Origin: a virus | DNA length: 64,000 nt | Direction: 5' to 3' (one strand) | IMG/VR virus record: IMGVR_UViG_3300035698_022475 | Location: 49,459-113,458 of that record | Shown here: one piece after another, positions 34,988-59,888 of the stretch | Numbering within the stretch: position 1 is the first letter of the stretch | Layout of the letters: every line of letters starts with the position of its first letter | The notes under the pieces: generated by a model | Told to the model about the DNA's origin: nothing | What the model saw: the letters and a program-made list of their open reading frames with translations, nothing else | Database searches by the model: none | Translations under genes and position numbers: made by a program

Positions 34988-35263
34988 TTAATCGTCTTTG
35001 GAAACCCAGACCCAGGCAGATATGTAGGCGCCGTCAGCATTGTCTTCATCAGGCAGCGAGACCGGAGCGTTGTCGTCTATCTCCAGTTCTCCCTCCACGC
35101 CAAACGCCTCCTTGGCCTTTACGACGTAATTTAATTCTTCCTGAGTGCGGTGCTTGGCGAAGAATGAAATGCAGTCAGCGAGGGTAAGACCCGAGCGAGC
35201 CAGACCTTCCAGCGCGTACTGTTTGACAGGAGCGGGCAAATCGGGAAGGTCTTTCTTAATCAT
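34988..35263 (-). CDS. Small helical protein (91 aa)
   Basis: Residues 1-55 are helical and the end is acidic with two Trp. It overlaps the ThyX start region by four bases and is the last gene of its transcript. Confidence 0.6.
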   Translation of the reverse strand: MIKKDLPDLPAPVKQYALEGLARSGLTLADCISFFAKHRTQEELNYVVKAKEAFGVEGELEIDDNAPVSLPDEDNADGAYISAWVWVSKDD

Positions 35264-35922
35264 GACAAGTACTCCTCTGCCTGATCCTCATAGAGGGATG
35301 GCATCTTCGCGTTGAACTGCTCGAGGACCTGTAGCATCACGCCACGGATAATCGGATGGGCAGGAGTATCGCAGCGCATCTTGAAGATGTGCCGCCACTC
35401 CCTGAGGTTGGCGCCGATGACGATCTCGGACTTCAGGCCGATGGGAAGCCACATCCTAGCAATCTGTGCTGGCTTAGCGATCCCGGCTTTCTTGGCCAGC
35501 TTCTCTGCTATGAAGTAATCCTGCTCCATACGCGCAGCACTGGCGTGCCAATGATCCCTCAACTCTTGAGTCATGTGAGGTACATCCGGAAGCTCGATCA
35601 CCGTTATCGAACTCTTAAACTTTCCCTTGCTGTAGTTACAGTAGCGAGTGCTCTCCTGCGCAAAGCTACAAAGCCTGTGCCGAACCAACTCGTGCGTGAG
35701 GCCGCGGTCCGCAACAATGCGGGCCGTCGCATAACCGAACTCCAGCATGGCGTGATGTTCTTGATTACGCACCATACGTACAAACGTAGGCGCCGACTCC
35801 TCAGTAATTCTGTCTTCTGATTTGTAGCAAGTACGTCCCGCTGCCTCTATGGCCTGCTCCGGGGTCTTGCCATCTTCTGGAGTGTAGAACGTTACTTCAA
35901 CTTGGGGCTGGACTACCTTCAT
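35260..35922 (-). CDS. thyX: FAD-dependent thymidylate synthase ThyX (220 aa)
   Basis: RHRLCSFAQESTRY at 81-94 is the ThyX signature (RHR-x7-8-S/E-x-R-Y). The enzyme makes dTMP from dUMP using methylene-THF, NADPH and FAD. Length is typical. The C-terminal block (MRCDTPAHPIIRGVM) fits the family. It supplies thymidylate for phage DNA and pairs functionally with the dNMP kinase at 15788. It is the 3' partner of a small Cys-rich gene that overlaps its start by 26 nt. Confidence 0.95.
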   Translation of the reverse strand: MKVVQPQVEVTFYTPEDGKTPEQAIEAAGRTCYKSEDRITEESAPTFVRMVRNQEHHAMLEFGYATARIVADRGLTHELVRHRLCSFAQESTRYCNYSKGKFKSSITVIELPDVPHMTQELRDHWHASAARMEQDYFIAEKLAKKAGIAKPAQIARMWLPIGLKSEIVIGANLREWRHIFKMRCDTPAHPIIRGVMLQVLEQFNAKMPSLYEDQAEEYLS

Positions 35923-36094: not shown

Positions 36095-36293
36095 TTTTCA
36101 CCTCGTTGTACTGTTTGCCGCCTCCCTCCCAACCACAATCCTCACAGATCAGGGTCCCCATGGGGTGCGGGATATCATCCTTCGTTTCGCCCACATCGAT
36201 GTTACCACCTTTATGGATTGCATCAACATACGCAAAGGACGTGTACTCCTGGCGAAAGTAGAAGCGTGGGGAGTCGCACTTGGGGCAATTCAT
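36039..36293 (-). CDS. Zinc-ribbon protein (84 aa)
   Basis: ATG 36293 has GGA upstream and overlaps the previous stop by four bases. MNCPKCDS and CEDCGWEG (about 50 residues apart) are the two halves of a zinc ribbon. The tail is polar. It overlaps the next gene by 56 nt. Confidence 0.65.
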   Translation of the reverse strand: MNCPKCDSPRFYFRQEYTSFAYVDAIHKGGNIDVGETKDDIPHPMGTLICEDCGWEGGGKQYNEVKNDVSNLQERTPIGGPDKD

Positions 36294-36442
36294 CTTTTTT
36301 CCTTTCTTAGATCTCCAACCTCTTTGTAAGAGCCGTCTTTCATGAGTATAAAGTAACCAATTATTTCCACGCAAATACCTGACTCGTGAGCATAAAGGTA
36401 ATAGTGGCCTTTAGGCCACGCGTTACAGTAGATGTGCGTCAT
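36290..36442 (-). CDS. Met-x-His family micro-protein (50 aa, MTHIYCNAW)
   Basis: This is the last gene of the first Met-x-His array. The start shares bases with the preceding stop. After MTHI the protein is aromatic-rich (KGHYYLYAH) and strand-like, with a basic end. It is too short to judge alone, but start, spacing and composition match its neighbours. Confidence 0.65.
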   Translation of the reverse strand: MTHIYCNAWPKGHYYLYAHESGICVEIIGYFILMKDGSYKEVGDLRKEKR

Positions 36443-36636
36443 CGGCTACGCTCGCGAGGATAGTAGTAACCCGGATTTCCGATACATACGAAAACCCACC
36501 TGCCTGTGGCGGTTATGGTGTAATCGTAAGCGAGGATCATGTTCAGAGAGATCGCGTACTTGGGCCACGCAACAAGAGGGATAAGCCGTAAGGATATGCT
36601 GTGCGTAGTTACGTTCTCGGGCTCTATGTGTACCAT
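36439..36636 (-). CDS. Met-x-His family micro-protein (65 aa, MVHIEPENV)
   Basis: ATG 36636 is chosen for the MVHI start and because it overlaps the upstream stop as TAATG. The body alternates hydrophobic strands with Trp/Tyr and ends in NPGYYYPRERSR. No Shine-Dalgarno stands out, so translational coupling is likely. Confidence 0.65.
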   Translation of the reverse strand: MVHIEPENVTTHSISLRLIPLVAWPKYAISLNMILAYDYTITATGRWVFVCIGNPGYYYPRERSR

Positions 36637-36824
36637 TAGTGCCCCAGCACCCCAACCAATTGCCACCCGCACCCGCGATACGACTTACGGTAGTAGAGAG
36701 TTTTTCCTTTGCGGCGGCCATCTCTCGGCATTCTCGCCGGATAAAGGTAAACAGGAGTAACCAGCATTTCCCAGATCTCACGGGAGGGGTGCTTCCGCGT
36801 TATATCTATGTTGACGTGAGTCAA
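36636..36824 (-). CDS. Met-x-His family micro-protein, TTG start (62 aa, MTHVNID)
   Basis: AAGGAGG lies seven bases before a TTG that overlaps the upstream stop (TTGA). Initiation there gives MTHVNIDITRKH, matching the array's signature. An ATG in the same frame upstream would miss the pattern. Arg/Tyr-rich body ending GWQLVGVLGH. Confidence 0.7.
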   Translation of the reverse strand: MTHVNIDITRKHPSREIWEMLVTPVYLYPARMPRDGRRKGKTLYYRKSYRGCGWQLVGVLGH

Positions 36825-36979
36825 AATGGCACCTCCTTCCAGGTGAAGTCGTCGTCGAGAATGAAAGTGTACTTCTCTCTGAAGAAGTAATTGTCCGCGG
36901 TTGTCACCCACATCGAGATGTGCAGTAGTCCCCGGGAATTGTTTTCGACAGTAGCGTAGCGCGCATTGATGTGGGTCAT
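36821..36979 (-). CDS. Met-x-His family micro-protein (52 aa, MTHINARYA)
   Basis: Begins MTHINARYATVENNS. The middle (GLLHISMWVTTADNYFF) reads as a beta hairpin and the end is acidic and aromatic. Overlaps both neighbours by four bases. Confidence 0.7.
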   Translation of the reverse strand: MTHINARYATVENNSRGLLHISMWVTTADNYFFREKYTFILDDDFTWKEVPF

Positions 36980-37146
36980 CGCAGCCTCCACTCCTCGTCC
37001 AAGAACCAGTAGACCGTCATCTGACTCAGGTGAATTGTATACTTGGTGAAGCACTCTCCCCAGAACGTGACGGGCACTACAGTTATTAGGGCGCATCCTC
37101 TCCCCGCGGAGAGCTGCGGGTAATAGCTGACATCTATGTGGGTCAT
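36976..37146 (-). CDS. Met-x-His family micro-protein (56 aa, MTHIDVSYY)
   Basis: Begins MTHIDVSYYPQL. Strand-rich core (CALITVVPVTFW) and a Trp-containing acidic end. Four-base overlaps on both sides indicate coupled translation. Confidence 0.7.
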   Translation of the reverse strand: MTHIDVSYYPQLSAGRGCALITVVPVTFWGECFTKYTIHLSQMTVYWFLDEEWRLR

Positions 37147-37319
37147 CCCCAATCGTCCCAGGGTCTCCAGTACCCCCCGATAAGCGCATAACAGCCCGTA
37201 CCGCAGGCTGGAGCTACGTAGTAGGACCTCCCCCAGTGAGTGTTGTAATGCGTTATGTCCATGCAGAGAAATTCCCCGCCCATCTTGGAGCGGCGTTGCT
37301 TGATGTCCACGTGTATCAA
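37143..37319 (-). CDS. Met-x-His family micro-protein, TTG start (58 aa, MIHVDIKQ)
   Basis: A TTG overlapping the upstream stop (TTGA) gives MIHVDIKQRRSK, in line with its neighbours; AAGGA is just upstream. The end is Gly/Trp-rich (GGYWRPWDDWG). Confidence 0.7.
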   Translation of the reverse strand: MIHVDIKQRRSKMGGEFLCMDITHYNTHWGRSYYVAPACGTGCYALIGGYWRPWDDWG

Positions 37320-37738
37320 TGCGACCCGTCCTTGACCTTGAGGATGTCCGCCACGATGCACTCCAGGCTGTCACGCCGTAACTTCTCGTATTCTCGACGA
37401 GCCCTGGCGAGAGAGTCTTCGCAGGTCTGGAGATCCCTGTCGACGTACTCGTAGCGGCGCATTTCCTTGTCGGCCTGCTCCTGCCAGTCCACCAGCGTGT
37501 CCCAACAGACGATCTCCCGGGAATCCTCGACGTACCGGTGTATGTCCTCCTGACATTCGGCCCAGGCAAGTTTGAACTCCATGGCTCGTGCGGTCTCTTC
37601 CTCTCCGCAGGAGGGCGGCGTAGCCTTTTCTAGTTGGTAGTACTGATACGCCAGCCCTCCCCACCCCGCCGTGAGAACCGAGAAGGCAATTATCATGATA
37701 GTAAAGCGTCTCTTGTAGTAGCTCATGATCTCAGACAT
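37316..37738 (-). CDS. Membrane-anchored coiled-coil protein, i-spanin-like topology (140 aa)
   Basis: AGGAGG precedes ATG 37738. Residues 10-30 are a hydrophobic N-terminal anchor. About 75-125 is a charged coiled coil with several Cys. This is the topology of Rz-type inner-membrane spanins, but many phage membrane proteins share it and no outer-membrane partner is seen overlapping it. It interrupts the Met-x-His array. Confidence 0.6.
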   Translation of the reverse strand: MSEIMSYYKRRFTIMIIAFSVLTAGWGGLAYQYYQLEKATPPSCGEEETARAMEFKLAWAECQEDIHRYVEDSREIVCWDTLVDWQEQADKEMRRYEYVDRDLQTCEDSLARARREYEKLRRDSLECIVADILKVKDGSH

Positions 37739-37773
37739 TGGTCCTCCTGTACTTCTCCCATCTCACTCATCAT
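37723..37773 (-). CDS. Possible 16-codon leader peptide
   Basis: ATG 37773 (MMSEMGEVQE) stands behind a strong AAGGAGATAAAT and its stop lies inside the spanin-like gene. It may couple translation into that gene or be spurious. Confidence 0.3.
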   Translation of the reverse strand: MMSEMGEVQEDQCLRS

Positions 37774-37791
37774 TATTTATCTCCTTGTGCA

Positions 37792-37995
37792 TCATCCCAA
37801 CACCTTTAGAAAGTCTGCGAAGGCCTCCTCAGTTATCAGGATCTTGTCCACCGGCAAAGGCTGGTTCAAGAAGGACTGTCCTGGACGTATTCCTCCGGTG
37901 GGAGGCGCATCATGGAATTCCCGACTGAAGCCGTCTCTACTGGACACCCAGCGGTATCCACCAACCCACGTTGATTTGCCATTGTAATGTCTCAC
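37792..37995 (-). CDS. Met-x-His family micro-protein, GTG start (67 aa, MRHYNGKST)
   Basis: GTG 37995 yields MRHYNGKSTWVGG, matching the MRH[FY] subgroup; AGAGA precedes it. Body with two Trp and a helical end (EEAFADFLKVLG). A longer ATG frame upstream is not supported. Confidence 0.65.
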   Translation of the reverse strand: MRHYNGKSTWVGGYRWVSSRDGFSREFHDAPPTGGIRPGQSFLNQPLPVDKILITEEAFADFLKVLG

Positions 37996-38204
37996 GCTGA
38001 CTCTCTTCTGTATGAAAAAGCCACGACACCCTCGCGCGTATCGAAGCGCCACGCTGTACGCCCGGGGGTTTCCACAGACCAAACATGAGTGCTCCGCTGT
38101 TCATTCCGGAGAATGCCTCCCCCTGTATGTGGGCGTCGTGTTACGGCATGCGCGTTGAGATGCCATATAGTGGTCATTCCTATTTGCTTTTCGAAGTGTT
38201 GCAT
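37992..38204 (-). CDS. Met-x-His family micro-protein (70 aa, MQHFEKQIG)
   Basis: Begins MQHFEKQIGMTTIW, followed by a His/Arg-rich body. Its ATG lies inside the 3' end of the preceding small gene. An internal ATG at codon 10 is an alternative start but would lose the signature. Confidence 0.6.
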   Translation of the reverse strand: MQHFEKQIGMTTIWHLNAHAVTRRPHTGGGILRNEQRSTHVWSVETPGRTAWRFDTREGVVAFSYRRESA

Positions 38205-38353
38205 ATTTTACTTAATTCCTCCTCTCGAATGTATCGAATGCTTCTGGGAGCGCGAGTAGGGTAGTGTTCAACCACAATTTCCCAATCAAGGCCCGGAGAC
38301 TTTGTAAACCATCGATTTCGAGTAACCCCAAGGCCCACATCATAATGCCGCAT
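38180..38353 (-). CDS. Met-x-His family micro-protein (57 aa, MRHYDVGLG)
   Basis: A 57-residue frame that starts MRHYDVGLGVTRNRW, sharing bases with the upstream stop (TGATG) and overlapping the next start by 25 nt. The stretch LDWEIVVEHYPTR resembles the second strand of its neighbours. Without it a 150-nt hole would break the operon. Confidence 0.7.
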   Translation of the reverse strand: MRHYDVGLGVTRNRWFTKSPGLDWEIVVEHYPTRAPRSIRYIREEELSKICNTSKSK

Positions 38354-38565
38354 CAGCCTCCTCCCCTCTCTACGCTCGCTTGGAGGTCTAGTAGAATCTC
38401 AGCTAGATCCTGGTCAGAGGACCTCTTGCTGCCAAAAGCGATGTCGCTCCAAAAGGAGAACGGCATTTGCCGAGAATAAACCTCGAGGACGAAACAGTTC
38501 CCGCCAACAACCGGGTCGAACCACACAACATCTCCTACGTCGTTGCCGTCATTGAAGTGTCTCAA
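38353..38565 (-). CDS. Met-x-His family micro-protein (70 aa, MRHFNDGND)
   Basis: Begins MRHFNDGNDVGDVVWF. Aromatic first half, then an acidic helical second half (DQDLAEILLDLQASV). Overlaps the upstream stop by four bases. Confidence 0.72.
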   Translation of the reverse strand: MRHFNDGNDVGDVVWFDPVVGGNCFVLEVYSRQMPFSFWSDIAFGSKRSSDQDLAEILLDLQASVERGGG

Positions 38566-38774
38566 TGTTCCGGCCTTCCCTGGGCGAAGTAGAAGGGGCC
38601 TATTCCGGGACCGCGAGGGTGCTGCTCGTACACGTGCTCAGAAAAGGCTCCCAGGTAAGTAGAGCCGTCGTACTCGACGTAGGGCTTCCAGCGACGATCC
38701 CCTACTACGGGAACACACCAGACGTACACAGGAGGTATGTCGTAATTAACGATTTTTCGGTCGAAGTGTCGCAC
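38562..38774 (-). CDS. Met-x-His family micro-protein, GTG start (70 aa, MRHFDRKIV)
   Basis: GGAGG precedes GTG 38774, giving MRHFDRKIVNYD. VYVWCVPVVG and the Tyr/Trp-rich region after it suggest a small beta sheet. The longer in-frame ATG upstream overlaps another gene and lacks the signature. Confidence 0.7.
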   Translation of the reverse strand: MRHFDRKIVNYDIPPVYVWCVPVVGDRRWKPYVEYDGSTYLGAFSEHVYEQHPRGPGIGPFYFAQGRPEH

Positions 38775-38962
38775 TAATATCCTCCTGTGGGCCAAAAGCG
38801 GCGGCCCAACCATCGGGGTCGTTGAAGTTTAGGTGAACCATGTCCTGTACGGTAAATCGACATACCCTGCCCGTTACAGCCTTCATTTACTTGATCCCAC
38901 CCCCCCGAAGTAGTCTCCATCCAGATTAAGTAATAGTCACCGTTTCGGTCGAAGTGTCTCAT
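38774..38962 (-). CDS. Met-x-His family micro-protein (62 aa, MRHFDRNGD)
   Basis: ATG 38962 gives MRHFDRNGDYYLIWMETTSG, sharing MRHFDR with the following gene. AGGAAA lies upstream. The start falls 26 nt before the upstream gene's stop. Confidence 0.72.
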   Translation of the reverse strand: MRHFDRNGDYYLIWMETTSGGWDQVNEGCNGQGMSIYRTGHGSPKLQRPRWLGRRFWPTGGY

Positions 38963-39158
38963 CGTATTTCCTGTACTGCTCAATTATCGCTTCGGCCTGA
39001 GCCTGTCCGGCCTGCTGTGCGTGCATTAACCCTAGGGTCATATCCGCACGGAGGTCTACAACCCTCCCGTAGTGGTCGAAGAACACCTGGTCGAACCCGT
39101 CGCACGAATCCAGCCAGCCGGGACTACCCATTATGTTGTTTCCATCGAAGTGTCTCAT
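38937..39158 (-). CDS. Met-x-His family micro-protein (73 aa, MRHFDGNNI)
   Basis: ATG 39158 gives MRHFDGNNIMGSPGWL. DGFDQVFFDHY echoes GGWDQVN of the next paralogue. The C-terminal half is a Gln/Ala-rich helix, an accretion not seen in the others. Confidence 0.72.
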   Translation of the reverse strand: MRHFDGNNIMGSPGWLDSCDGFDQVFFDHYGRVVDLRADMTLGLMHAQQAGQAQAEAIIEQYRKYDETLRPKR

Positions 39159-39613
39159 CGGGGACGCCGAGTAACGAACTCGATGATCTCTGCCAGCAGC
39201 CGGCGCCTTCCTACTGTCGAGGACGTCCAATACGCCTTCCTGACAGGCTCCAGCAGCTCGAGGATGTGATTGGTAGCCTTGTCCCTCTTCTCCCGATTAT
39301 GGTCCTCCATGACGGCCTCGGCATTGATGTCTTTGGCGCGCCACTCGGCGAGCTGCTCTGAAGTATCCTCCTGGCCCTGGTATCTCCAGTTACCATAAGC
39401 ATTACAGCCCCCATCGTCATCACGGGAAACATTACCTTCGTAGACCCCACCAATCACGTCGTGACTCCGCTTACCCGCGGGACCAAGCGGTGCTGTAAAA
39501 GACATAACCTCCCCGCCCGGGTCTACATACTGATGTCCGAACACACACTTACTTCCCGTATTTTGGACCTTGCGCCCGATGAACTTCCATTTTTCTATTT
39601 TCTTTTCGGTCAT
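39155..39613 (-). CDS. Unknown protein within the Met-x-His array (152 aa)
   Basis: Starts MTEKKIEKWKFIGRKVQ, so it is not a member of the micro-protein family. Gly/Asp-rich middle, then a helical end. Its first 65 nt overlap the end of a broken family member. No function assigned. Confidence 0.6.
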   Translation of the reverse strand: MTEKKIEKWKFIGRKVQNTGSKCVFGHQYVDPGGEVMSFTAPLGPAGKRSHDVIGGVYEGNVSRDDDGGCNAYGNWRYQGQEDTSEQLAEWRAKDINAEAVMEDHNREKRDKATNHILELLEPVRKAYWTSSTVGRRRLLAEIIEFVTRRPR

Positions 39614-39776
39614 TTTCTCGCTCCTCGCAATCGTTGTGGAGGTATACCCTGTTGTTGATTACCATTAAACGTAACGCAATGGCGCCCATCACTCGTGAGG
39701 TACCGCCGCAGTAGTGACACACAACAACGACATCGTCGCGGTAACATAGCGGACATTAGATTTCTACGTGAATCAT
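39549..39776 (-). pseudogene. Met-x-His zinc-ribbon paralogue with in-frame TAA at codon 7
   Basis: ATG 39776 reads MIHVEI and then TAA. The same frame then continues CPLCYRDD ... CHYCGG to a stop at 39549, a total of 76 codons. The intact neighbour at 39778-39996 begins MTHFEVICPLC, so codon 7 (Ile there) has become a stop here. Either this is a nonsense-mutated gene, or the stop is read through, or downstream reinitiation is used. Position one base after the upstream stop fits a once-normal gene. Confidence 0.5.
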
Positions 39777-39777
39777 G

Positions 39778-39996
39778 TTACTTCAGCGCCAGGCAGTCGC
39801 CGTCGATGTTGTAGAGGTCCCAGGCGAACTCACACTCGGAAGCCGTCCCGCATCCAAGACACGTCATCGCGTAATAAAGCTTCAGGCGGCCCCCCTTCTG
39901 GATGCGCGGCTGCACACCGCCCGTACACTCGAAATGACAATCAGAATCAGTTAGACCTCCCGCACAGAGAGGACAGATCACCTCGAAGTGAGTCAT
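39778..39996 (-). CDS. Met-x-His family zinc-ribbon protein (72 aa, MTHFEVICPLC)
   Basis: GAAAGGAG precedes ATG 39996. MTHFEVICPLC runs the family signature straight into a zinc knuckle. Further pairs (DCHFEC, CLGC with SEC) suggest one or two zinc sites. First gene of its transcript, behind the promoter at 40019-40027. Confidence 0.72.
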   Translation of the reverse strand: MTHFEVICPLCAGGLTDSDCHFECTGGVQPRIQKGGRLKLYYAMTCLGCGTASECEFAWDLYNIDGDCLALK

Positions 39997-40018
39997 ATAA
40001 GCTCCTTTCTGTTTAGTG

Positions 40019-41412: not shown

Positions 41413-42534
41413 CTATTCAACCTTTCTGATGTCATTCGCTGTGGGGCCATCGCTTACGTAAACCGCCGTAGCTCCGACCGCGGTACGAATCCGTTTCAAG
41501 AAGTCCTCTTTCGACGCACATACAAGGGCCTTTCCATCCTCGTACAGACGATAGGGCTCCTCCAGAAGGTCCATACACGTGACGACCATATTAGCACCGT
41601 CCACGTAAGGGTCCTTCATTCCTGCGTACCTGAGTAGATCGAGGTCGAGCAGTCCCCGCCGAAACACTCCTTGCGGACCGTCGTCTCTGTTGTTCTCGTA
41701 GGGATTGATACGGATACCCTCGTCCAGAGTATTAGTCATCGGGCCCGCGCCATGGCGCGTCTGGTAGGTACGAGTAACAAGCCATACCTGCGCAGGAGGT
41801 GCTCCGTAGTTGAGCTTGAGAATGTTCTTCGTACCTGTGTTCGAGGGTGTTACGTGAGGAAAGAACCCATAGTCCTGGTCAAGGAGCAGTCCTTGCGAAC
41901 CTTCGAAGATGGTGGGCTGCAGTGTGGAAATACAAGTCGGAGTTCCATCAATCCCGTCCGCCTTCACCGCCTCCTCACAGGACCAGTAAAAATCATCCAA
42001 ACTGATGGCCTCCTCGGAATACCCATAGACCTTGTGCAACTGCTCCATCTTAATCTTCAGCGCTGCGGGGTGGAACAGATCTTCGAACCAGATATGATAG
42101 TTCTCACGCTCTCGGCGCACTGTGGCGAAAATTCCTCCACCACAGCTCCCGTGGCGGTTGTCCACCTCGTCGTGTTTGTTCGTCGCTATCTCATACGGAG
42201 TAATGACGGGACTTCGAGCAGCGATGTTAAGTACGGGAGAGAACCCTTTGGACACCAGGTCTGCGTACTCGTTGATCAGAGAGATAGGGTTCGTGGCGCA
42301 GAACTCAGACCAGTAGGTGGGCGCCCCCCGCAGGGTGCCGCTCCCGAAGTGCGAAGAGACGTGGTCCCTCCCGTCGGGAAGGACGACGTGATGTGCAGCC
42401 TGCGGACCGCCTGAAAAGCGGCAGACGACGGGGGCGGTAGCGTGTGCGCAGAGCCAGTCTACGACATGCCCCTTACCCTCATCGCCGAACCCCAGTCCGA
42501 TCACTGCATGGTCGCCAGTGATCCTCTTCATCAC
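41413..42534 (-). CDS. Adenylosuccinate-synthetase family enzyme (PurA/PurZ-like, 373 aa)
   Basis: GLGFGDEGKG (13-22) is the GTP/IMP-binding loop with Asp18 at the place of E. coli PurA Asp13. RFSGGPQAAHH (39-49) replaces the bacterial GGHNAGH block, keeping the catalytic His. VTPSNTGTKN and TRTYQTRHGAGP further down fit the family. At 373 aa it is shorter than bacterial PurA (about 430) and close to phage and archaeal forms. PurA makes adenylosuccinate from IMP; phage PurZ makes the 2-aminoadenine precursor from dGMP. Published PurZ enzymes mostly lack this Asp, so a canonical PurZ is not proven. Confidence 0.82.
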   Translation of the reverse strand: MMKRITGDHAVIGLGFGDEGKGHVVDWLCAHATAPVVCRFSGGPQAAHHVVLPDGRDHVSSHFGSGTLRGAPTYWSEFCATNPISLINEYADLVSKGFSPVLNIAARSPVITPYEIATNKHDEVDNRHGSCGGGIFATVRRERENYHIWFEDLFHPAALKIKMEQLHKVYGYSEEAISLDDFYWSCEEAVKADGIDGTPTCISTLQPTIFEGSQGLLLDQDYGFFPHVTPSNTGTKNILKLNYGAPPAQVWLVTRTYQTRHGAGPMTNTLDEGIRINPYENNRDDGPQGVFRRGLLDLDLLRYAGMKDPYVDGANMVVTCMDLLEEPYRLYEDGKALVCASKEDFLKRIRTAVGATAVYVSDGPTANDIRKVE

Positions 42535-43478
42535 ATCATCTCGATGTCTTCTTCGTTCACCCCATCGTCGTTCTTATGCACGCCTTTGCCCTCCTTAGGC
42601 TTTACGCCGGGCAACGGCCTCTTCCCCTGCACTTCGAGGATCTTGTCGGCGATGATGCCGGCGACATCGTCATGGTGCTGGGACGCGAGGACGTTGGGGC
42701 CCAGGAGGTCGCCCCACTGCTCCAGGCTGTCGGGCTGGCGACCGCGGTGCGTCTCCTGGATGTGGATGTGGTAGACCTCGTAGGTCTCCTGGACGCGCTC
42801 GAGGAGCTTCTTGGCCGTCTCATCGGACGCCTGGCTCCCCGCGCCCATGATGCGCTGCAGCGCGTGAGCCGGGAAGTGCGAGAGGGGCGGCTCGTCACCG
42901 ATGGTGAAGAGGATGCCCTTCTTCTTTCGCTTCTCCCAGCGGTCATGGGCCGTGTGGTTGGCGCCGAAATACCAGGCGAGCGGGTAGCTTTCTCCCGCGT
43001 TTCCACCGCCACCGCCTTCCAACCAGATGGCCTCGAGCCACTTCTCAAGCAGCTCATCGCTGGACTCAAACTGTCCCACTTGAAGCGGTGCCTGGTCCCC
43101 ACACTCGTGGTCTCCGATGGCCAGGAACATCACCTGAGGATCCTCGACCCCGGCCTGGAGGATCTTGTCCATCAGCTTGGGGAATCCCTCAGCCACGAGC
43201 TGATGGGGAACCCGACTCATGGAGGCCGTGACATCGAGGGCGATGATGATAGGGAGCGAGTTGGGATGCTCCTCGGAGTCCCGGGACTCACGCATCTGGA
43301 CGCCCACGGAGCGCATCTCATGATGCACCCGACGCTGTAGGAAGATGTCCGGGGCACTCTTGGGCGTGTAGCTATCGTTCACGAGACCGGTGTCCATCGC
43401 AAATCGCTTGTTGAGTTTGCCGCTGGTCACACCCCGGGACACGGCGTCGCTGTAGCTGTAGGTACCTCCACCCATCAC
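42531..43478 (-). CDS. Von Willebrand factor A-domain protein (315 aa)
   Basis: IIIALDVTASMS (from 78) carries a MIDAS-type D-x-T-x-S metal site. A glycine run (GGGGGNAGESYP) and IGDEPP later complete the fold. The C-terminus is charged. Phage VWA proteins often work with AAA ATPases, but none is seen in this window. Coupled by four-base overlaps to both neighbours. Confidence 0.78.
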   Translation of the reverse strand: MMGGGTYSYSDAVSRGVTSGKLNKRFAMDTGLVNDSYTPKSAPDIFLQRRVHHEMRSVGVQMRESRDSEEHPNSLPIIIALDVTASMSRVPHQLVAEGFPKLMDKILQAGVEDPQVMFLAIGDHECGDQAPLQVGQFESSDELLEKWLEAIWLEGGGGGNAGESYPLAWYFGANHTAHDRWEKRKKKGILFTIGDEPPLSHFPAHALQRIMGAGSQASDETAKKLLERVQETYEVYHIHIQETHRGRQPDSLEQWGDLLGPNVLASQHHDDVAGIIADKILEVQGKRPLPGVKPKEGKGVHKNDDGVNEEDIEMM

Positions 43479-47906: not shown

Positions 47907-48490
47907 GAAATAGTCCTCGACGTGGGAACCTGGGTGTAGACCCAATTGAAGAACTTCATCGCCCACCTCTTACTCTTCCAGCGTTTGACATGAAAGCCGG
48001 TTACGCTCTTGGGTGGAAACTTGAGTTCTTTCGCTGTGTCGAAGTAATGACAGCGAGAAGTAACAAAGCCTGGATAACTACGGAGCAACTTCCCCGCGCC
48101 CTCTATTAGAGGCGGCGGACCAATCCAGAAGCACTCACGATCTCCTACCTGGTCAAGCAAACGCCGAACAGGCCCACGCACACAAGAAGCGGGGGTTCTG
48201 AGGGTGTTCATTCCCAGGACGATGATGACAGTGTCTGGTTTAAACTCGTTGACCAGCTCTGCCATTTGGTTGTTTCGAGCGAAGGTGCTGGGACGCGCTC
48301 CGATACGCGAATCAATTTTGAGCGTAGAGGGCGCCGCTTCGAACGTCTCCTCTATATACAGCCCCAACCCTGAGCCCTCTCCGATGAGAGAATCCCCGAT
48401 CACGAGTATCTTTCGATACCGCCACACAGGATTCGTGTCTGCGGAGGCTGTTGCCGCGACGAGCAGAACAGCCATGATAAGGTATCTCAT
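47903..48490 (-). CDS. Secreted SGNH/GDSL hydrolase (195 aa)
   Basis: A signal peptide at 1-18 is followed by VIGDSLIG (Ser34, block I), a Gly in RIGARPS (block II), VLGMNT (block III, GxND-like) and TGFHV (block V His). All SGNH catalytic positions are accounted for, though the block III Asn/Asp pair is modified. It predicts an exported esterase or acyltransferase, perhaps acting on cell-wall or LPS acetyl groups (superinfection exclusion or lysis). Confidence 0.75.
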   Translation of the reverse strand: MRYLIMAVLLVAATASADTNPVWRYRKILVIGDSLIGEGSGLGLYIEETFEAAPSTLKIDSRIGARPSTFARNNQMAELVNEFKPDTVIIVLGMNTLRTPASCVRGPVRRLLDQVGDRECFWIGPPPLIEGAGKLLRSYPGFVTSRCHYFDTAKELKFPPKSVTGFHVKRWKSKRWAMKFFNWVYTQVPTSRTIS

Positions 48491-48873
48491 TTATTTTTCT
48501 CCAGTATCTCGCGTTCCTTGTCCAGGTCACGGTTGAGGGCTCCGTCTTCGTTGAACTTGTCACCGAAGCGGGCCTTGAGTTTGGCGATGTTCTTCTCCCA
48601 CACCTCTTCGAAAGAGATACCGAGAGCATCGCACAGAAGCGCCAAGTACCAGAAGGTGTCGCCGGCTTCTTCAGCCAGGTTAACCTCGTCGAGCGCGCCA
48701 CCGTAGTAGATGTGCTTCTTCACAGCATCGAGCATCTCTCCACCTTCTGTGGAAATGCCAATAGCCGCATGGAGCAGCCGTTGAGTTTTAGGAGACTCCA
48801 GACGATGAGCGATCTGCTCGTGGTCTCGGCTCTCGGTCTTGACGGCATTGCTTACGTATTCTTTTGGATTCAC
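48487..48873 (-). CDS. MazG-like nucleotide pyrophosphohydrolase (128 aa)
   Basis: E43-x2-E46 and E69-x2-D72 (EGGEMLDA, EEAGDTFWY) are the metal ligands of the all-alpha MazG/dUTPase-like superfamily. It hydrolyses an NTP or dNTP to NMP and pyrophosphate. Phage relatives include MazG that lowers (p)ppGpp and MazZ that makes dGMP from dGTP in 2-aminoadenine pathways. With a PurA/PurZ-family gene 6 kb away, the MazZ reading deserves testing. Confidence 0.8.
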   Translation of the reverse strand: MNPKEYVSNAVKTESRDHEQIAHRLESPKTQRLLHAAIGISTEGGEMLDAVKKHIYYGGALDEVNLAEEAGDTFWYLALLCDALGISFEEVWEKNIAKLKARFGDKFNEDGALNRDLDKEREILEKNK

Positions 48874-48886
48874 TTGTTCCTCCTAA

Positions 48887-49141
48887 TCAGTAGTCCTGAC
48901 GTCGCATGTTCCACACGTCATGGAGCATACGAAGACAGGTGTTCTCGGGGACATCTTCAAAATGAGTTCCTGTCTTGATACCATACTCCCCGCAAAGGGG
49001 GACAGTCGTATGAAGACTATAACGCCGGCTAAGGACGTTTTCACTCGGATAATGCGTAGCTTCTACAATAAGTGTGAATACCGGGGCGGCAATACCGTTA
49101 TTGAACTGCCGCTCCAGAGTCTTCCCAGTAACGTGATACAC
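48887..49141 (-). CDS. Met-x-His family protein (84 aa, MYHVTGKTL)
   Basis: Begins MYHVTGKTLERQF. Beta-rich, ends in charged residues. Last gene of the second array in transcription order, 13 bp before the MazG gene's start. Confidence 0.68.
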   Translation of the reverse strand: MYHVTGKTLERQFNNGIAAPVFTLIVEATHYPSENVLSRRYSLHTTVPLCGEYGIKTGTHFEDVPENTCLRMLHDVWNMRRQDY

Positions 49142-49149
49142 GCGCCCTC

Positions 49150-49458
49150 CTATTCGTAAAACGGTTGTGGTTTATCGTGATGGATATTGACTCCGTATTT
49201 AGGGCAAAGGTTATGTTTTGAAACGACGATAGAAAGGGGATTACGCTCTGTGTTGTACTCAACCATCCGGTCATTGCCGCGGTCAAACCAGTCGGAATGG
49301 TCTCGCCACCAAGTACAGTACACGAAACCCTCCCGGTGTCGGGACAGAGGTGCTTCGTTCACTACGACCGAATACTCGCAAAAGCTTTTCTCATAAGGGC
49401 CTCCCCTATCATGCCATGATATTTGACGTCGAAATGTTATCCGGCTTACGTGGACCAT
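49150..49458 (-). CDS. Met-x-His family protein (102 aa, MVHVSRITF)
   Basis: Begins MVHVSRITFRRQ. His/Trp/Arg-rich with YCTWWRDHSDWF near 48. Larger than most members. Its ATG sits directly on the preceding stop. Confidence 0.68.
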   Translation of the reverse strand: MVHVSRITFRRQISWHDRGGPYEKSFCEYSVVVNEAPLSRHREGFVYCTWWRDHSDWFDRGNDRMVEYNTERNPLSIVVSKHNLCPKYGVNIHHDKPQPFYE

Positions 49459-49727
49459 TAGAATACTCTCCCTACCAACACACTGTGTTCGCGAGGCAAG
49501 ATAGGCCCATACTCCCAGAGAGTCCGGGGGTTCTCACGAAGAACATGATACAAGGCCGCAATCCCATTAACCGCGTAGTACGAATACTGCGTGGTGTGAG
49601 TTGCGTAGTCTTTCAGGTATACAGTATTTTTAAAGACTCGCCGAAGTGCGACTCTCACATAGAAGAACAGATTGTCGTCCACCCCTCTAGTTTGAAGCTC
49701 TAAAATAACACGGTCAACGTGGTGCAT
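49458..49727 (-). CDS. Met-x-His family protein (89 aa, MHHVDRVIL)
   Basis: ATG 49727 gives MHHVDRVILELQTR; an earlier in-frame ATG overlaps the upstream gene and lacks the signature. FFYVRVALRRVF near 24 resembles EFRFFY-type segments of the next two genes. Confidence 0.65.
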   Translation of the reverse strand: MHHVDRVILELQTRGVDDNLFFYVRVALRRVFKNTVYLKDYATHTTQYSYYAVNGIAALYHVLRENPRTLWEYGPILPREHSVLVGRVF

Positions 49728-49908
49728 TATACCACTCGTATATCCCTCGGAGACGTGAGGAGTGGGGCACCTGGTGGTGCAAAAAGAGAAAGGATTCATA
49801 GCACCTCAGTGTGGGCATCCAGTAGTAAAATCTAAACTCAACGCAGTAGGTGCTGGTGATATGTGGGTGTCTTACAGTTAGCACCTCAACACTAGAGAAG
49901 TGGACCAT
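49714..49908 (-). CDS. Met-x-His family protein (64 aa, MVHFSSVEV)
   Basis: Begins MVHFSSVEVLTVRHP. Alignable along its whole length with the upstream neighbour: FRFYY, then ESFLFL, then RGIYEWY. Clear tandem duplicate. Confidence 0.72.
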   Translation of the reverse strand: MVHFSSVEVLTVRHPHITSTYCVEFRFYYWMPTLRCYESFLFLHHQVPHSSRLRGIYEWYNAPR

Positions 49909-50114
49909 CAGAAAATCCTCCCCCAAGTCAACGACTCGTACCACCGGTATATCCAACGAAGACACGGGCCGTGGAGTACCTCGTTGTACCGATAGAGAAA
50001 GGACTCGGCAATACGTAACTTCCCAATGCGCGAGAGGTCTATGTAGAAAAATCTGAAGTCGATGGCGTAAGGACGTTTTAGCCTTACCAGCTCGAGCCCT
50101 GAGAAATGCTCCAT
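49908..50114 (-). CDS. Met-x-His family protein (68 aa, MEHFSGLEL)
   Basis: Begins MEHFSGLELVRLKRP. FRFFY, ESFLY and RWIYRWYESL match the following paralogue in order and spacing. The ATG comes directly after the TTTACGACGTAAA palindrome. Confidence 0.72.
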   Translation of the reverse strand: MEHFSGLELVRLKRPYAIDFRFFYIDLSRIGKLRIAESFLYRYNEVLHGPCLRWIYRWYESLTWGRIF

Positions 50115-51430: not shown

Positions 51431-51757
51431 TCAGGGGCGATACCCAGCCTTGCGGTTCGTCACATTATGTTCTTGCTCAAGCATCTCGTACTGGCCATTA
51501 GGCCAACGACGCCTCACGTGAACCACAACAGTAAACGTACGTGGGCACAGAAACGCTAACGCCGCCAACCGCAAGTCCGATAGGCTCCGAAGTTTTTGGA
51601 TAAGCATCTGGGTCGGAGGAAAGCCTCCAAAGTACTCATACCGCGAGTGGTTATTACTCGGAGTAACGTAATTAATATGTCCTTCACACAGCGACGTACG
51701 ATTACGGTCTTTGGCGTCGAAGCTGTACGCCACACGGATAGTATCAAACTGTAGCAT
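51431..51757 (-). CDS. Met-x-Gln variant of the array family (108 aa, MLQFDTIRV)
   Basis: Begins MLQFDTIRVAYSFD: the family's [FY][DE] after position 3, but Gln instead of His. VVVHVRRRWPNG near the end is strand-like. It overlaps the upstream gene by 14 nt. Confidence 0.6.
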   Translation of the reverse strand: MLQFDTIRVAYSFDAKDRNRTSLCEGHINYVTPSNNHSRYEYFGGFPPTQMLIQKLRSLSDLRLAALAFLCPRTFTVVVHVRRRWPNGQYEMLEQEHNVTNRKAGYRP

Positions 51758-52082
51758 CGAAGGGATACGACCTTTCCGGCTGCAACTCGAAGATATGTAC
51801 GGTTTGGGTGCCGTTGTCGATAACTGCTCCGCCGAGGTATCTGAAACGCTGGGGATTAAGCACCTCGCCGTAAACCGGCCTCAAGCAATAACCCTGAGTG
51901 GCCAAGTATAGATCTACGGGTACCGCCCCCACTTCGTCAACCGGCGCCCAGTACACAACTGCGGGAGTGTTCCCTTCTGTGCAAACCCCGACAAGAATTG
52001 AACCTTTGGGGAATTGCTCTGTGACGGGGCCGTTGCTAGTGTAGAGAGGAAGTACCGAGAGGGTGTACTCAGTCTGTGACAT
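51744..52082 (-). CDS. Unknown beta-rich protein (112 aa)
   Basis: Begins MSQTEYTLSVLPLYTSNG. Regular strand pattern with Gly/Asn/Pro turns and no charged helices. No signature or motif recognised. Confidence 0.6.
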   Translation of the reverse strand: MSQTEYTLSVLPLYTSNGPVTEQFPKGSILVGVCTEGNTPAVVYWAPVDEVGAVPVDLYLATQGYCLRPVYGEVLNPQRFRYLGGAVIDNGTQTVHIFELQPERSYPFDATV

Positions 52083-52704
52083 CCACGAGGCCGGTGCTGG
52101 TCAGGAGCCGTCCCTGGGGATCGGTCTGATAGAAATTGTTCTCACAGGCACCGTACTCCACCTTCCATGTGCCGGCATCAACGTCCCACTCGGCGTGCGC
52201 TGTGCACAGCATGTCGGTAGCACCTTCGCCCTCGGTAAGCAGCTCACCGGAGAGGGGGTCACGGCGTCGGAACCTGGTGCCCTCTTTGAGTTGACTCCAG
52301 TACCCCGACTTCCACTCGTGTGACCCTGCATTCCACACCTCGAGCATGACAGGAGGATTCACCTTCACGTCGGGATCCTCATGGGGCGGCAGGCCCTGGG
52401 CGTAGGCTGTTGCCAAACGCTGCAGCGCTTCGCTCTGCTCTTTGGAGTCATGCAGCTCCTTGTGGAGACGCTGTGACTCGATGTAGTCGTGGTTGAAGAG
52501 AAGCGCGTGATGTACGCCCTCGTTGACCCGCGGACTTGAATGCGGGACTTCCCGAAGACGATACTCCGGCGGGAGCACGAGGTGCAGAAGGCCGGGTGTG
52601 GCCTTGAGGTCAAGAGTAAGTACGAGCTTGCTGTCCACGATGACCTTGACAGGCCCCTCGACAGACTCGGTTTTGAATTCAACAATTGTGGGATCAATGT
52701 CCAT
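52069..52704 (-). CDS. Unknown two-part protein (211 aa)
   Basis: ATG 52704 (MDIDPTIVEF) has AGGAGG upstream and is preferred over an upstream in-frame start. Residues 1-65 look like a beta domain, 75-115 a helix, and 125-211 a second beta domain with two Cys. Function unknown. Confidence 0.6.
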   Translation of the reverse strand: MDIDPTIVEFKTESVEGPVKVIVDSKLVLTLDLKATPGLLHLVLPPEYRLREVPHSSPRVNEGVHHALLFNHDYIESQRLHKELHDSKEQSEALQRLATAYAQGLPPHEDPDVKVNPPVMLEVWNAGSHEWKSGYWSQLKEGTRFRRRDPLSGELLTEGEGATDMLCTAHAEWDVDAGTWKVEYGACENNFYQTDPQGRLLTSTGLVDVTD

Positions 52705-52966
52705 TGTTTTCCTCCTGGTTTGGCTTAACGTGTCTAAACGTATACACACGTTCTTTGAAAGTAAAGGAGCGTCGAAACATAATATTAGAGTACATGTGGG
52801 TCGTCGCTGACGAGTAGATGTCTCGGGGCATGAGGACATGTAAGTGAAGAGACCGGGGAAGCTGGCTATTACGAATAATAGTGTACTCTCCTTCCCTTGA
52901 TCCGGGGACGTCGTAAGTCAGAAGTACGTGGATACCTTCACCCCCGAGAATGCCTACGTGCCGCAT
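52694..52966 (-). CDS. Met-x-His family protein (90 aa, MRHVGILGG)
   Basis: Begins MRHVGILGGEGIHVLLTYDV. Regular strands, then a basic stretch. Overlaps the next gene by 11 nt and the previous by 13. Confidence 0.68.
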   Translation of the reverse strand: MRHVGILGGEGIHVLLTYDVPGSREGEYTIIRNSQLPRSLHLHVLMPRDIYSSATTHMYSNIMFRRSFTFKERVYTFRHVKPNQEENNGH

Positions 52967-53193
52967 CGGCTTGCTATGCCCCGGGCAAGCGCGGCCACCC
53001 TCTTGGCTCCTGTGTCACCAAAGCGGTCAACGTAAGCAAGATATGGGCTACAAGGGTTAAAGGGAAGCTTAATAATGTTGTAGATACGAGGGCCTATCAG
53101 GAGGGAATAGAAGCCAGGGGCTTCACTAGTATCCCACATCCACACATAAAGCTCGCCGAAAGAGTTCAGTTTAGCTTGTTCAAAGTGCATCAT
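52954..53193 (-). CDS. Met-x-His family protein (79 aa, MMHFEQAKL)
   Basis: Begins MMHFEQAKLNSFGELYVWMW; the second ATG is a possible alternative start. LYVWMWDTS matches the aromatic strand of other members. Its start overlaps the upstream stop. Confidence 0.68.
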   Translation of the reverse strand: MMHFEQAKLNSFGELYVWMWDTSEAPGFYSLLIGPRIYNIIKLPFNPCSPYLAYVDRFGDTGAKRVAALARGIASRCGT

Positions 53194-53372
53194 CAAAGCC
53201 CCCGCGGCATCGGAATTAAGCCTGTGTGGATAAGCTTCTCCAATACTTCTTTTGTGAGAGTATCTTCCGGATTATCGAGGAAGATCGATTGAAAGCTCCA
53301 ACCCGATCTTGAGTCTCTGAACCGGTAGGCGACCCCGCCTGGAGCGGAGACAGTGCCTTCGTAATGTTTCAA
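53193..53372 (-). CDS. Met-x-His family protein, TTG start (59 aa, MKHYEGTVS)
   Basis: The frame has no ATG near its beginning. A TTG that overlaps the upstream stop (TTGA) gives MKHYEGTVSAPGGVAYRF, fitting the array. GWSFQSIFLD follows, then a helical end. It fills an otherwise empty 175-nt interval. Confidence 0.68.
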   Translation of the reverse strand: MKHYEGTVSAPGGVAYRFRDSRSGWSFQSIFLDNPEDTLTKEVLEKLIHTGLIPMPRGL

Positions 53373-53578
53373 AATACCCTCGGGCGACCTAGTTGCGCCC
53401 GGATGAAGTTCGACATCTCTTCTCCCATCGCAGCCTCCATAGCGGTTTGGGTGCGGGTGACGTAGGGACCTTCTGTGATTTGTCCAGCTCCGTGCTTGTG
53501 AGTTATCTCAACCCACGAGTACTTGGACCTTGTAGGAATAAGGGGATGCTGGAGGTATTTGCAGTCGAAGTGTCTCAT
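53369..53578 (-). CDS. Met-x-His family protein (69 aa, MRHFDCKYL)
   Basis: Begins MRHFDCKYLQHPLIP. KYSWVEITH is the aromatic strand. The end is a Met/Ala/Glu helix and a basic tail. Confidence 0.7.
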   Translation of the reverse strand: MRHFDCKYLQHPLIPTRSKYSWVEITHKHGAGQITEGPYVTRTQTAMEAAMGEEMSNFIRAQLGRPRVF

Positions 53579-53581
53579 TCG

Positions 53582-53710
53582 TCAAACCGCCCATGAACCA
53601 GGATCGAGATAGTGCTCTGTAACCCTGGACCCACCTACCGCCCCCCCGGCACGCCAAGAGAGCACCCACAAATACTTAAAGAAAGGGCGTCGCCCATCAA
53701 AGTGTCTCAT
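53582..53710 (-). CDS. Met-x-His family protein, shortest (42 aa, MRHFDGRRP)
   Basis: ATG 53710 gives MRHFDGRRPFFKYLWVLSW, then a Gly-rich turn and a third strand. At 42 residues it shows the minimal body of the family: signature, aromatic strand, turn, strand. Confidence 0.68.
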   Translation of the reverse strand: MRHFDGRRPFFKYLWVLSWRAGGAVGGSRVTEHYLDPGSWAV

Positions 53711-53891
53711 TGGATTCCTCCTCTCTTCGCCGCAGGCGAGCAGCGCACACAGGACTGAGACCATATTTTCCGATTGAGTGAGGATAATACATTGAGTAAA
53801 TGAGTCGCCAATTCCGCGGCCCGCGCCTGGTCCAGCGTACAGCCCAATTAGCGCCGCCGCCGTCAGGGTCTAATGAATCAAAATGCCTCAT
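53697..53891 (-). CDS. Met-x-His family protein (64 aa, MRHFDSLDP)
   Basis: Begins MRHFDSLDPDGGGANWAVRW. WRLIYSMYYP is a further strand and the tail is Arg/Glu-rich. Overlaps both neighbours by 14 nt. Confidence 0.7.
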   Translation of the reverse strand: MRHFDSLDPDGGGANWAVRWTRRGPRNWRLIYSMYYPHSIGKYGLSPVCAARLRRREEESNETL

Positions 53892-54207
53892 GGTCCCTCC
53901 TTTCTACCTTTTGGATACTACCATTAAAGTGGTCTCGGACAACATCATCTCCCACATGGACACTGCCGCCCGCAACCGCCCAGTAGGTTTGTATGGATCT
54001 GACACAGTCAGGAAACAGAGGAGCTATCAGCGCTTCCGATATCTCGGCCTGGTCCCAGCCTTCTAACGAGGGGTCGTTAGCCTGAAAGCTACACTCGGCG
54101 ATAAAGTCACACCCTCGGGAGCCGCTGTAGTAGATCTCGACGAGTCCGCGAGCATTCGCTCCCCAGTTTCCCTCGCAGAAGCATTCTTGCAGATGAACTT
54201 GAAACAT
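53878..54207 (-). CDS. Met-x-Gln variant of the array family (109 aa, MFQVHLQEC)
   Basis: AGGAG precedes ATG 54207. MFQVHLQECFCEGNWG keeps the pattern of a short strand after Met but has Gln at position 3. Longer and more acidic than its neighbours, four Cys. Confidence 0.62.
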   Translation of the reverse strand: MFQVHLQECFCEGNWGANARGLVEIYYSGSRGCDFIAECSFQANDPSLEGWDQAEISEALIAPLFPDCVRSIQTYWAVAGGSVHVGDDVVRDHFNGSIQKVERRDHEAF

Positions 54208-54237
54208 TAGTAATCTCCTAAAGAGTGAATCATATTC

Positions 54238-54459
54238 TCACCACCCAAGCATATCGTCAGGCTGCCAGTGAAAAGGGTGTACACGCAGAACGCTACCTGT
54301 AGTCATCACTCCGGTTACTACTTGAGGCGCTCTGATACTGTACAGCTCTCCAATCACTCGTCCACGGGAAATATTTCTGTATAAGATTACGACGGAATAC
54401 TTGGTGTAGGCCGCCATCTCCCCTGCGATGCTGGGCTCGGCGTGGTAAACGTGAATCAT
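54238..54459 (-). CDS. Met-x-His family protein (73 aa, MIHVYHAEP)
   Basis: Begins MIHVYHAEPSIAGEM. Two strands (YSVVILYRN) and a C-terminal block TTGSVLRVHPFHW shared with the next two genes. Confidence 0.7.
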   Translation of the reverse strand: MIHVYHAEPSIAGEMAAYTKYSVVILYRNISRGRVIGELYSIRAPQVVTGVMTTGSVLRVHPFHWQPDDMLGW

Positions 54460-54668
54460 GTCCTTACCCCCTTGTGAATAGTTAAGGGTACGCAGTTCCA
54501 GCGCCGGCTGGGTTGTCGGAGGACGCTACCCGTAGCGCGCACCTCGTAGCGCCGCAGCTCCATTCCAATCGTTGTTACAACCGGATGCCATGTTACTATG
54601 AATGTATATATAGCTCCGGTGGAATATGTCATTATCGGAATAGCTTTAGTGTGTTCAATGTGAATCAT
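54456..54668 (-). CDS. Met-x-His family protein (70 aa, MIHIEHTKA)
   Basis: ATG 54668 gives MIHIEHTKAIPIMTYS. The block YEVRATGSVLRQPSRRW corresponds to the downstream paralogue's TTGSVLRVHPFHW, so the two are sister genes. Confidence 0.7.
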   Translation of the reverse strand: MIHIEHTKAIPIMTYSTGAIYTFIVTWHPVVTTIGMELRRYEVRATGSVLRQPSRRWNCVPLTIHKGVRT

Positions 54669-54898
54669 CTCGACCACGCCGCTACTGAGGATACCAAAAT
54701 CCAGTGCTTGGGGGCTATTCGAAGAATACTCCCCGCCCTCCTCCCACTACCCGCACCCAAAGGAGCACAAATGGTCCAATTATCGATGCGCCTTGGCGCA
54801 GGATCTGCGGAGTTATAGTACTCAAGACGAAGAGCGTATATTGACGAAAAGCTATTATGTCGAAGAGTAGTAAGACCGCGGGGGCTTACGTGAATCAC
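54665..54898 (-). CDS. Met-x-His family protein, GTG start (77 aa, MIHVSPRGL)
   Basis: GTG 54898 (GGTGGG upstream) gives MIHVSPRGLTTLRH. RAGSILRIAPKHW matches the GSVLR block of the two following genes. Confidence 0.68.
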   Translation of the reverse strand: MIHVSPRGLTTLRHNSFSSIYALRLEYYNSADPAPRRIDNWTICAPLGAGSGRRAGSILRIAPKHWILVSSVAAWSR

Positions 54899-58092: not shown

Positions 58093-58232
58093 ATTACCTC
58101 CAGTGTATAGCTCCTAAAAAAACGGCCCTCTAACAACATAATATCATTAAACTTTTTTGTGTTGTGTAGAACGCATAGCTTTTGACGTTTATACATCGCG
58201 CTAAGTCATTGAAATTACATAACGCCAAATTC

Positions 58233-58260
58233 CCCAAAACCGTTGCCTTTCTACGTAAGA
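58233..58260. repeat. 28-bp repeat, copy 1
   Basis: Reads CCCAAAACCGTTGCC then TTTCTACGTAAGA. Copy 2 differs at four positions and copy 3 is more diverged. Confidence 0.7.
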
Positions 58261-58561
58261 CCTAAGGGCTTGAAATCATTGAAAACATTAGGGGTCAAAA
58301 TACGATGTATTTTTACCTACCTCGTAATTGAATGATTACAAGAAGTTGCGGGACAGTTGTGTCGTGACGCGTTGCGAACGTACGATGCATTTTCCACCTT
58401 TTTCCCAAAACCACACCCTTTGCCAAACGTCTTTTGTGAATATCATTACGTTTTCTCCTGCCAAGTAGGAAGGTCAATGGGTTGTCATTTGAGTCGGACG
58501 AGAACTGTTTTATCTTGAAGAGCGATACATCCCCGCGGTTGCTGGGCCGGAGAGGCAACTT

Positions 58562-58589
58562 CCCAAAACCATTACCTTTCTACATAAGA
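58562..58589. repeat. 28-bp repeat, copy 2
   Basis: Reads CCCAAAACCATTACC then TTTCTACATAAGA. On the minus strand it starts just after TGG-TATAAC, an extended -10 match, so it may lie in an early transcribed leader. Confidence 0.7.
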
Positions 58590-59282: not shown

Positions 59283-59312
59283 ATTATACTTTCTCTTCTT
59301 AAGTACTGTCAA
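59283..59312 (-). promoter_or_regulatory. Consensus sigma70 promoter
   Basis: Minus-strand TTGACA (59312-59307) and TATAAT (59288-59283), both perfect, are separated by 18 bp. No gene starts nearby; the next on this strand begins at 58092. The transcript would have a 1.2-kb leader or be a non-coding RNA. Confidence 0.75.
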
Positions 59313-59329
59313 TTGATTGGGACCCCGAA

Positions 59330-59678: not shown

Positions 59679-59888
59679 TCAATTGGGGGGACGATAGGTG
59701 TGTTCTAATACTTCAGTGAGGGGTGTGTCGTCCGAGAGGAAGAGCCTGTCCCAGGGGGCGATGGGGTCTTTGACCCGCTGTGAGTGGGAATGGGAGACGT
59801 TCCCGGCACTATCTACTACTACGGAAAATACAGACCCTCCAACACCCCCGGGCCACTTCGCTACTCCAATTAAATTTACGTGGTACAT
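59679..59888 (-). CDS. Met-x-His family protein, isolated copy (69 aa, MYHVNLIGV)
   Basis: Begins MYHVNLIGVAKWPGG; GGAAG precedes ATG 59888. It lies alone between its own promoter (59988-59996) and a terminator. Strand-rich first half, acidic/Pro-rich end. Confidence 0.7.
   Translation of the reverse strand: MYHVNLIGVAKWPGGVGGSVFSVVVDSAGNVSHSHSQRVKDPIAPWDRLFLSDDTPLTEVLEHTYRPPN

Follow-up and report, generated by a model that had tools for sequence, protein, structure and literature searches.

The T4 internal proteins Ip1, Ip2 and Ip3 are non-essential and diverse, have an N-terminal leader alone in common, and block different GmrSD restriction enzymes; the leader directs packaging into capsids, and T4 carries three such genes at two loci (PMC12373910). 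These proteins are the closest working precedent for the genes described here, a set of 29 small genes whose products begin with Met-x-His (M-x-H) and which are arranged in arrays in an environmental phage genome, the 113,458-bp IMG/VR virus record IMGVR_UViG_3300035698_022475. The analysed stretch comprises bases 49459-113458 of this record (64,000 nucleotides) and is called the window; positions given below are those of the window unless stated otherwise. We do not claim that the M-x-H proteins are members of the T4 family. Both sets consist of diverse phage proteins sharing N-terminal sequence, whereas the M-x-H set has about 29 genes with a signature of five residues and is known here from the genes alone. 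A T4-type capsid-targeting leader was not encountered in the members, whose common part is only M-x-H-[FYIV]-polar.

Two other described systems share part of this layout. The host-takeover module of SPO1, a large lytic phage, comprises 26 mostly small genes in one region (PMC6873191). The small M-x-H genes are likewise clustered in one region, whereas the SPO1 module is not described as sharing one N-terminal motif and has strong promoters. A promoter consensus scan of our sequence gave 2 promoter-like sites as compared to 3.5 in shuffled sequences, with a consensus that may not be that of this phage. For T4 tifA/dmd, tandem segmental amplification of a small counter-defence locus under selection has been reported (PMC9391042). 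The M-x-H arrays resemble this case in the apparent tandem copying of small genes, but the T4 copies are recent products of laboratory evolution whereas the M-x-H copies can scarcely be aligned.

Extent of the arrays and their N-terminal signature

An earlier note on this DNA had described fourteen minus-strand genes between 36290 and 39996. All fourteen are present, encode proteins of 50-73 amino acids (aa) and open with M-x-H-[F/Y/I/V]. The proposed division into six and eight members also holds, with MTHI, MVHI, MTHV and MIHV starts at 36290-37319 and MRHY, MQHF, MRHF and MTHF starts at 37792-39996, as does the use of alternative start codons (9 ATG, 3 TTG and 2 GTG). The run is mostly tandem, but ordinary genes break it at 37316-37738 and again at 39155-39613; the 14th member (39778) sits 164 nucleotides (nt) past the second of these. 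Overlaps of one to four bases, described for the run as a whole, were found at 9 of the 11 junctions between adjacent members (1 or 4 nt) but not at the other two (25 and 26 nt). The tandem overlap is consistent with translational coupling. The complete set is larger than initially described: in addition to the 14 genes at 36.3-40.0 kb there are five at 48887-50114, nine at 52694-54898 and one at 59679-59888, whereas outside the arrays a rough gene caller applied to the whole 113-kb record found about three genes with His at position 3. Three small genes near the arrays (51431, 51744 and 53878) have Gln at this position.

The array was compared with 1000 first-order Markov shuffles of 36240-40000, counting M-x-H open reading frames (ORFs) of at least 40 aa with the same freedom of start codon. 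The shuffled sequences contained on average 0.84 such ORFs, with a maximum of 6 and a longest chain of 2. The real minus strand has 16 (the 14 genes and 2 incidental ORFs), including a chain of 7, and the opposite strand has 3. Histidine occupies position 3 in 14 of 17 genes, for which P is ~6e-21 at a His frequency of 2.3% of codons. Chance is excluded as the source of the M-x-H array.

Conservation extends beyond the histidine. Residue 4 of the 29 members is Phe (12), Val (9), Ile (5) or Tyr (3), and residue 5 is Asp (10), Glu (6), Asn (5), Ser (4) or one of four others. The true signature is therefore M-x-H-[FYIV]-polar and covers the first five residues. At position 2, Thr, Ile, Met, Lys and AGR-encoded Arg are frequent because an ATGA overlap requires the second codon to begin with A. 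The signature codons vary synonymously (AGA, AGG, CGA and CGG for Arg; CAC in 24 and CAT in 5 cases for His; TTC and TTT for Phe; GAC and GAT for Asp), and the signature is written behind three different start codons (ATG, GTG and TTG). Synonymous variation and the varied start codons thus favour selection on the protein, and a signature acting at the protein level rather than in the nucleic acid. A codon model was trained on long frames from this genome, and when all six frames were compared with it the predicted frame ranked first in 33 of 34 array genes, the exception being the gene at 48887.

Relatedness, predicted folds and loss of members

The earlier statement that the bodies hardly align is borne out, with weak similarity inside two classes and none between them. 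BLASTP comparison among the members gave one clear pair (49714/49908, 38% identity, E 2e-13), the other pairs being weak and many of these alignments starting at residue 1. After removal of residues 1-5, mean local similarity still exceeded that of shuffled sequences within class A (MRHF-D, z 3.0) and within class B (M[T/V/I]H[V/I] and relatives, z 5.6), whereas class A and class B bodies showed no similarity beyond shuffles when compared to each other (z 0.1). Leave-one-out profiles that included the start recognised class A members, and profile-profile alignment of class A with class B covered the first nine columns only. Of the aromatic strand and Gly/Trp turn proposed for all members, a hydrophobic-x-Trp strand and a Gly are found in class A; the proposal is not supported beyond this class. 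Sequence similarity shows common descent for some members and makes it likely within a class.

Low-confidence AlphaFold2 models suggest that the two classes have different folds. The class A model (12 aligned members; predicted local distance difference test score (pLDDT) 65.7, predicted template modelling score (pTM) 0.34) has short strands followed by a long helix, and the class B model (6 aligned members; pLDDT 63.0, pTM 0.45) consists of strands; both are too weak for a comparison of folds. A fold search of the PDB with the two models gave no match below E 0.2.

Loss of members can also be traced. The segment 39155-39996 holds a broken 15th member, MIHVEI*CPLCYRDD..., which resembles its intact neighbour MTHFEVICPLCAGG... 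(MTHFEVICPLC...). The broken copy is a pseudogene, possibly of a zinc-ribbon member. Two short frames spotted by eye, MIHSLGDY and MMHKEINNDE, have an ATG-x-CAC start and may be further remnants of members.

Table 1. Genes of the M-x-H arrays in the window, with interposed and neighbouring genes. Start codons are given where noted.
Position	Strand	Feature	N-terminus	Start	Length (aa)
36290..36442	-	M-x-H gene, class B	MTHI		50
36439..36636	-	M-x-H gene, class B	MVHI		65
36636..36824	-	M-x-H gene, class B	MTHV	TTG	62
36821..36979	-	M-x-H gene, class B	MTHI		52
36976..37146	-	M-x-H gene, class B	MTHI		56
37143..37319	-	M-x-H gene, class B	MIHV	TTG	58
37316..37738	-	interposed ordinary gene, one N-terminal hydrophobic segment
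37792..37995	-	M-x-H gene, class A	MRHY	GTG	67
37992..38204	-	M-x-H gene, class A (weakest member)	MQHF		70
38180..38353	-	M-x-H gene, class A	MRHY		57
38353..38565	-	M-x-H gene, class A	MRHF	TTG	70
38562..38774	-	M-x-H gene, class A	MRHF	GTG	70
38774..38962	-	M-x-H gene, class A	MRHF		62
38937..39158	-	M-x-H gene, class A	MRHF		73
39549..39776	-	broken M-x-H member, TAA at codon 7
39778..39996	-	M-x-H gene, CxxC motifs (zinc-ribbon-like)	MTHF		72
48887..49141	-	M-x-H gene, second cluster	MYHV	GTG	84
49150..49458	-	M-x-H gene, second cluster	MVHV		102
49458..49727	-	M-x-H gene, second cluster	MHHV		89
49714..49908	-	M-x-H gene, second cluster; paralogue of 49908	MVHF		64
49908..50114	-	M-x-H gene, second cluster	MEHF		68
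51431..51757	-	small neighbour, Gln at position 3, possible divergent member	MLQFD
51744..52082	-	small neighbour, Gln at position 3, possible divergent member	MSQTE
52694..52966	-	M-x-H gene, third cluster	MRHV		90
52954..53193	-	M-x-H gene, class A	MMHF		79
53193..53372	-	M-x-H gene, class A	MKHY	TTG	59
53369..53578	-	M-x-H gene, class A	MRHF		69
53582..53710	-	M-x-H gene, class A	MRHF		42
53697..53891	-	M-x-H gene, class A	MRHF		64
53878..54207	-	small neighbour, Gln at position 3, possible divergent member	MFQVH
54238..54459	-	M-x-H gene, class B	MIHV		73
54456..54668	-	M-x-H gene, class B	MIHI		70
54665..54898	-	M-x-H gene, class B	MIHV	GTG	77
59679..59888	-	isolated M-x-H gene	MYHV		69

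Homologues and arrays in other genomes

The view that no described family has this layout agrees with our searches of Pfam, PHROG, PADLOC and the PDB. Scanning of 26 members against Pfam and PHROGs gave no family match at E 0.01, ten members had no match in PADLOC, which covers defence rather than anti-defence, and the members matched no PDB sequence and no Rfam family. Translated searches of phage records with tblastn at E values up to 10 returned chance-level matches only (E at least 1), and IMG/VR scans with the genes at 38562 and 49908, confirmed by tblastn, found nothing.

Arrays were also sought by pattern in GTDB genomes and in 2.9 million IMG/VR contigs, each pattern consisting of two or three M-x-H starts spaced as in genes. 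The two class A pair patterns match the window itself 2 and 3 times. Of these, one gave a single chance match in structural genes in IMG/VR and the other none; in the GTDB genomes there were four matches, which are isolated chance pairs or repeats, the only chained one being an apparent short DNA repeat in Ureibacillus. The class B triple pattern matched only the antisense strand of a repeat protein, which is a weak negative because the pattern itself misses the first array by two bases, one spacing being too short. A looser M-x-H triple occurred at 120 loci or more, and chains among the matches listed were low-complexity repeats only. The absence of the array elsewhere is firm only for close class A copies.

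A relative of the phage was found through other genes. The protein encoded at 42531-43478 matched contig IMGVR_UViG_3300017963_000232 (G001) with 68% identity, and a sigma-factor-like protein led to IMGVR_UViG_3300029258_001504 (G002). The former protein also has relatives of ~35% identity in Vibrio and mycobacterial phages, and the annotated matches listed are all hypothetical proteins. The two contigs share a 12.4-kb overlap at 99.6% and form parts of a single genome of ~165 kb, which is co-linear with our record across most of the structural and replication genes. This co-linear genome has no M-x-H array: a homologue of the interposed gene 37316-37738 is kept in G001 (55% identity) without an array around it, and duplicated small genes lie near the syntenic site.

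At 71.8-79.8 kb of its own sequence, G001 carries a different tandem array of ~19 fast-diverging genes on a single strand, encoding 37-185 aa. The motif [FYC]P[GED], picked by eye from these same genes, occurs within the first 45 residues in 10 of the 19 as compared to 4 of 107 genes elsewhere, and three consecutive genes are detectably paralogous. Both arrays consist of consecutive fast-diverging genes on one strand with an N-terminal motif, in the same phage lineage. The G001 array differs from the M-x-H array in that its proteins are mostly longer, lack the M-x-H start and have no sequence relation that we could find. This lineage thus seems to carry tandem accessory arrays habitually, with each array specific.

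Some further features of the window lie outside the arrays. This one phage encodes an adenylosuccinate-synthetase-like enzyme (41413-42534), a MazG-like pyrophosphohydrolase (48487-48873) and ThyX (35260-35922), and a 2-aminoadenine (Z) DNA pathway is possible. Against such a pathway speaks the adenylosuccinate-synthetase-like enzyme itself, which has a GDEGKG motif with the aspartate retained and whose PDB matches all bear the name adenylosuccinate synthetase. The genome is otherwise dense, but a stretch of ~1.5 kb (58100-59670) is almost without predicted genes, and at 60193-60404, in a gene-poor stretch, a 77-bp tandem repeat is present in about three degenerate copies.

Interpretation of the arrays

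The best overall explanation, to which we assign a probability of about 0.5, is a family of accessory proteins that evolves by birth and death of its members, the start being constant and the bodies variable. That the arrays consist of tandem paralogues is in itself highly probable. Short accessory proteins of this environmental phage would increase in number by local duplication, diverge and be lost, with the M-x-H-[FYIV]-polar start alone held constant and the bodies free to diverge. In the low-confidence models the constant start opens the first β-strand of a small fold, and it may serve as a shared handle or structural keystone, either for docking to one common partner or for targeting like the leader of the T4 Ip proteins, whereas the variable bodies would bind different host or defence targets. 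Such a host- or defence-targeting function, suggested by small size, operon packing, divergence, loss and gain of genes, and absence from the relative, is a tentative and somewhat doubtful assignment; the earlier guess of host takeover or anti-defence is a reasonable one on these grounds.

Several observations weigh against the birth-and-death explanation. Leave-one-out profiles built from the bodies alone recognise almost no member, and therefore it is not proved that all bodies descend from one ancestor; the two classes could have arisen independently. The codon score is 0.037 per codon in array genes as compared to 0.106 in ordinary small genes of the phage, a low value that would fit young, fast-changing or foreign genes. 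The members match no known anti-defence, takeover or other protein in Pfam, PHROGs, PADLOC or the PDB. Finally, no orthologues were found, and consequently neither the rate of change nor selection is measurable.

The common start could instead be an N-terminal targeting or packaging tag, with the proteins entering the virion and being injected as T4 Ip1-3 are, or else being sent to one phage compartment. The bodies then need not be related, and the first five residues are indeed all that classes A and B have in common. We consider this improbable: five residues are very short for a packaging leader, a cleavage motif is not visible in the members, the bodies are weakly similar within a class, and in the record more than 25 kb separate the arrays from the virion gene block. 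Conservation of the start as DNA or RNA, by an element for translation coupling, regulation or recombination that reads Met-x-His by coincidence, would account for the A that the ATGA overlap fixes at most junctions as first base of codon 2, and for the ATG-x-CAC start retained in the orphan frames MIHSLGDY and MMHKEINNDE. However, codons 2-5 change synonymously, either His codon is used, what is conserved at residues 4 and 5 is the chemical class and not the base, the amino acid motif is preserved behind GTG and TTG starts, and Rfam gave no match, which makes such an element very unlikely.

Met-x-His at a free amino terminus is an amino-terminal Cu/Ni-binding (ATCUN) motif, and the encoded His is at position 3 in 29 of 29 members. 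An ATCUN site requires both the free amino terminus and a histidine in third place, and methionine aminopeptidase normally removes Met before Thr or Val. A pure metal site is disfavoured because eight of the 29 members have Thr or Val at position 2 and are expected to lose Met, shifting His to position 2. It also leaves the constant hydrophobic residue 4 unexplained, and three neighbours have Gln at position 3; we regard it as a highly improbable explanation. The reading that we credit least is that no proteins are made at all, the ORFs being spurious through an accidental pattern or over-read start codons. The low coding score per codon would agree with this, as would the share of GTG or TTG starts (8 of 34 array genes as compared to 13 of 132 elsewhere), but the Markov null, the frame test (33 of 34) and the end-to-end tiling of the genes argue against it.

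The birth-and-death explanation can be extended to a phage arsenal, in which one five-residue handle is recognised by a single phage or host partner, about thirty freely evolving small bodies are produced from translationally coupled tandem arrays, each against a different host or defence target, and the lineage repeatedly founds arrays with new handles. In this full form the proposal is speculative and we think it unlikely.

Phages hold many short orphan genes of which the origin is unclear, and the M-x-H signature allows relatives to be recognised after their bodies have lost similarity. With about 29 genes that carry one readable N-terminal signature, and a pseudogene, the phage offers a ready-made panel for defence-system screening. 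If the start is a shared handle, the arrays would represent a compact modular design for host-targeting proteins, and the signature would be a marker with which to search for such proteins elsewhere.

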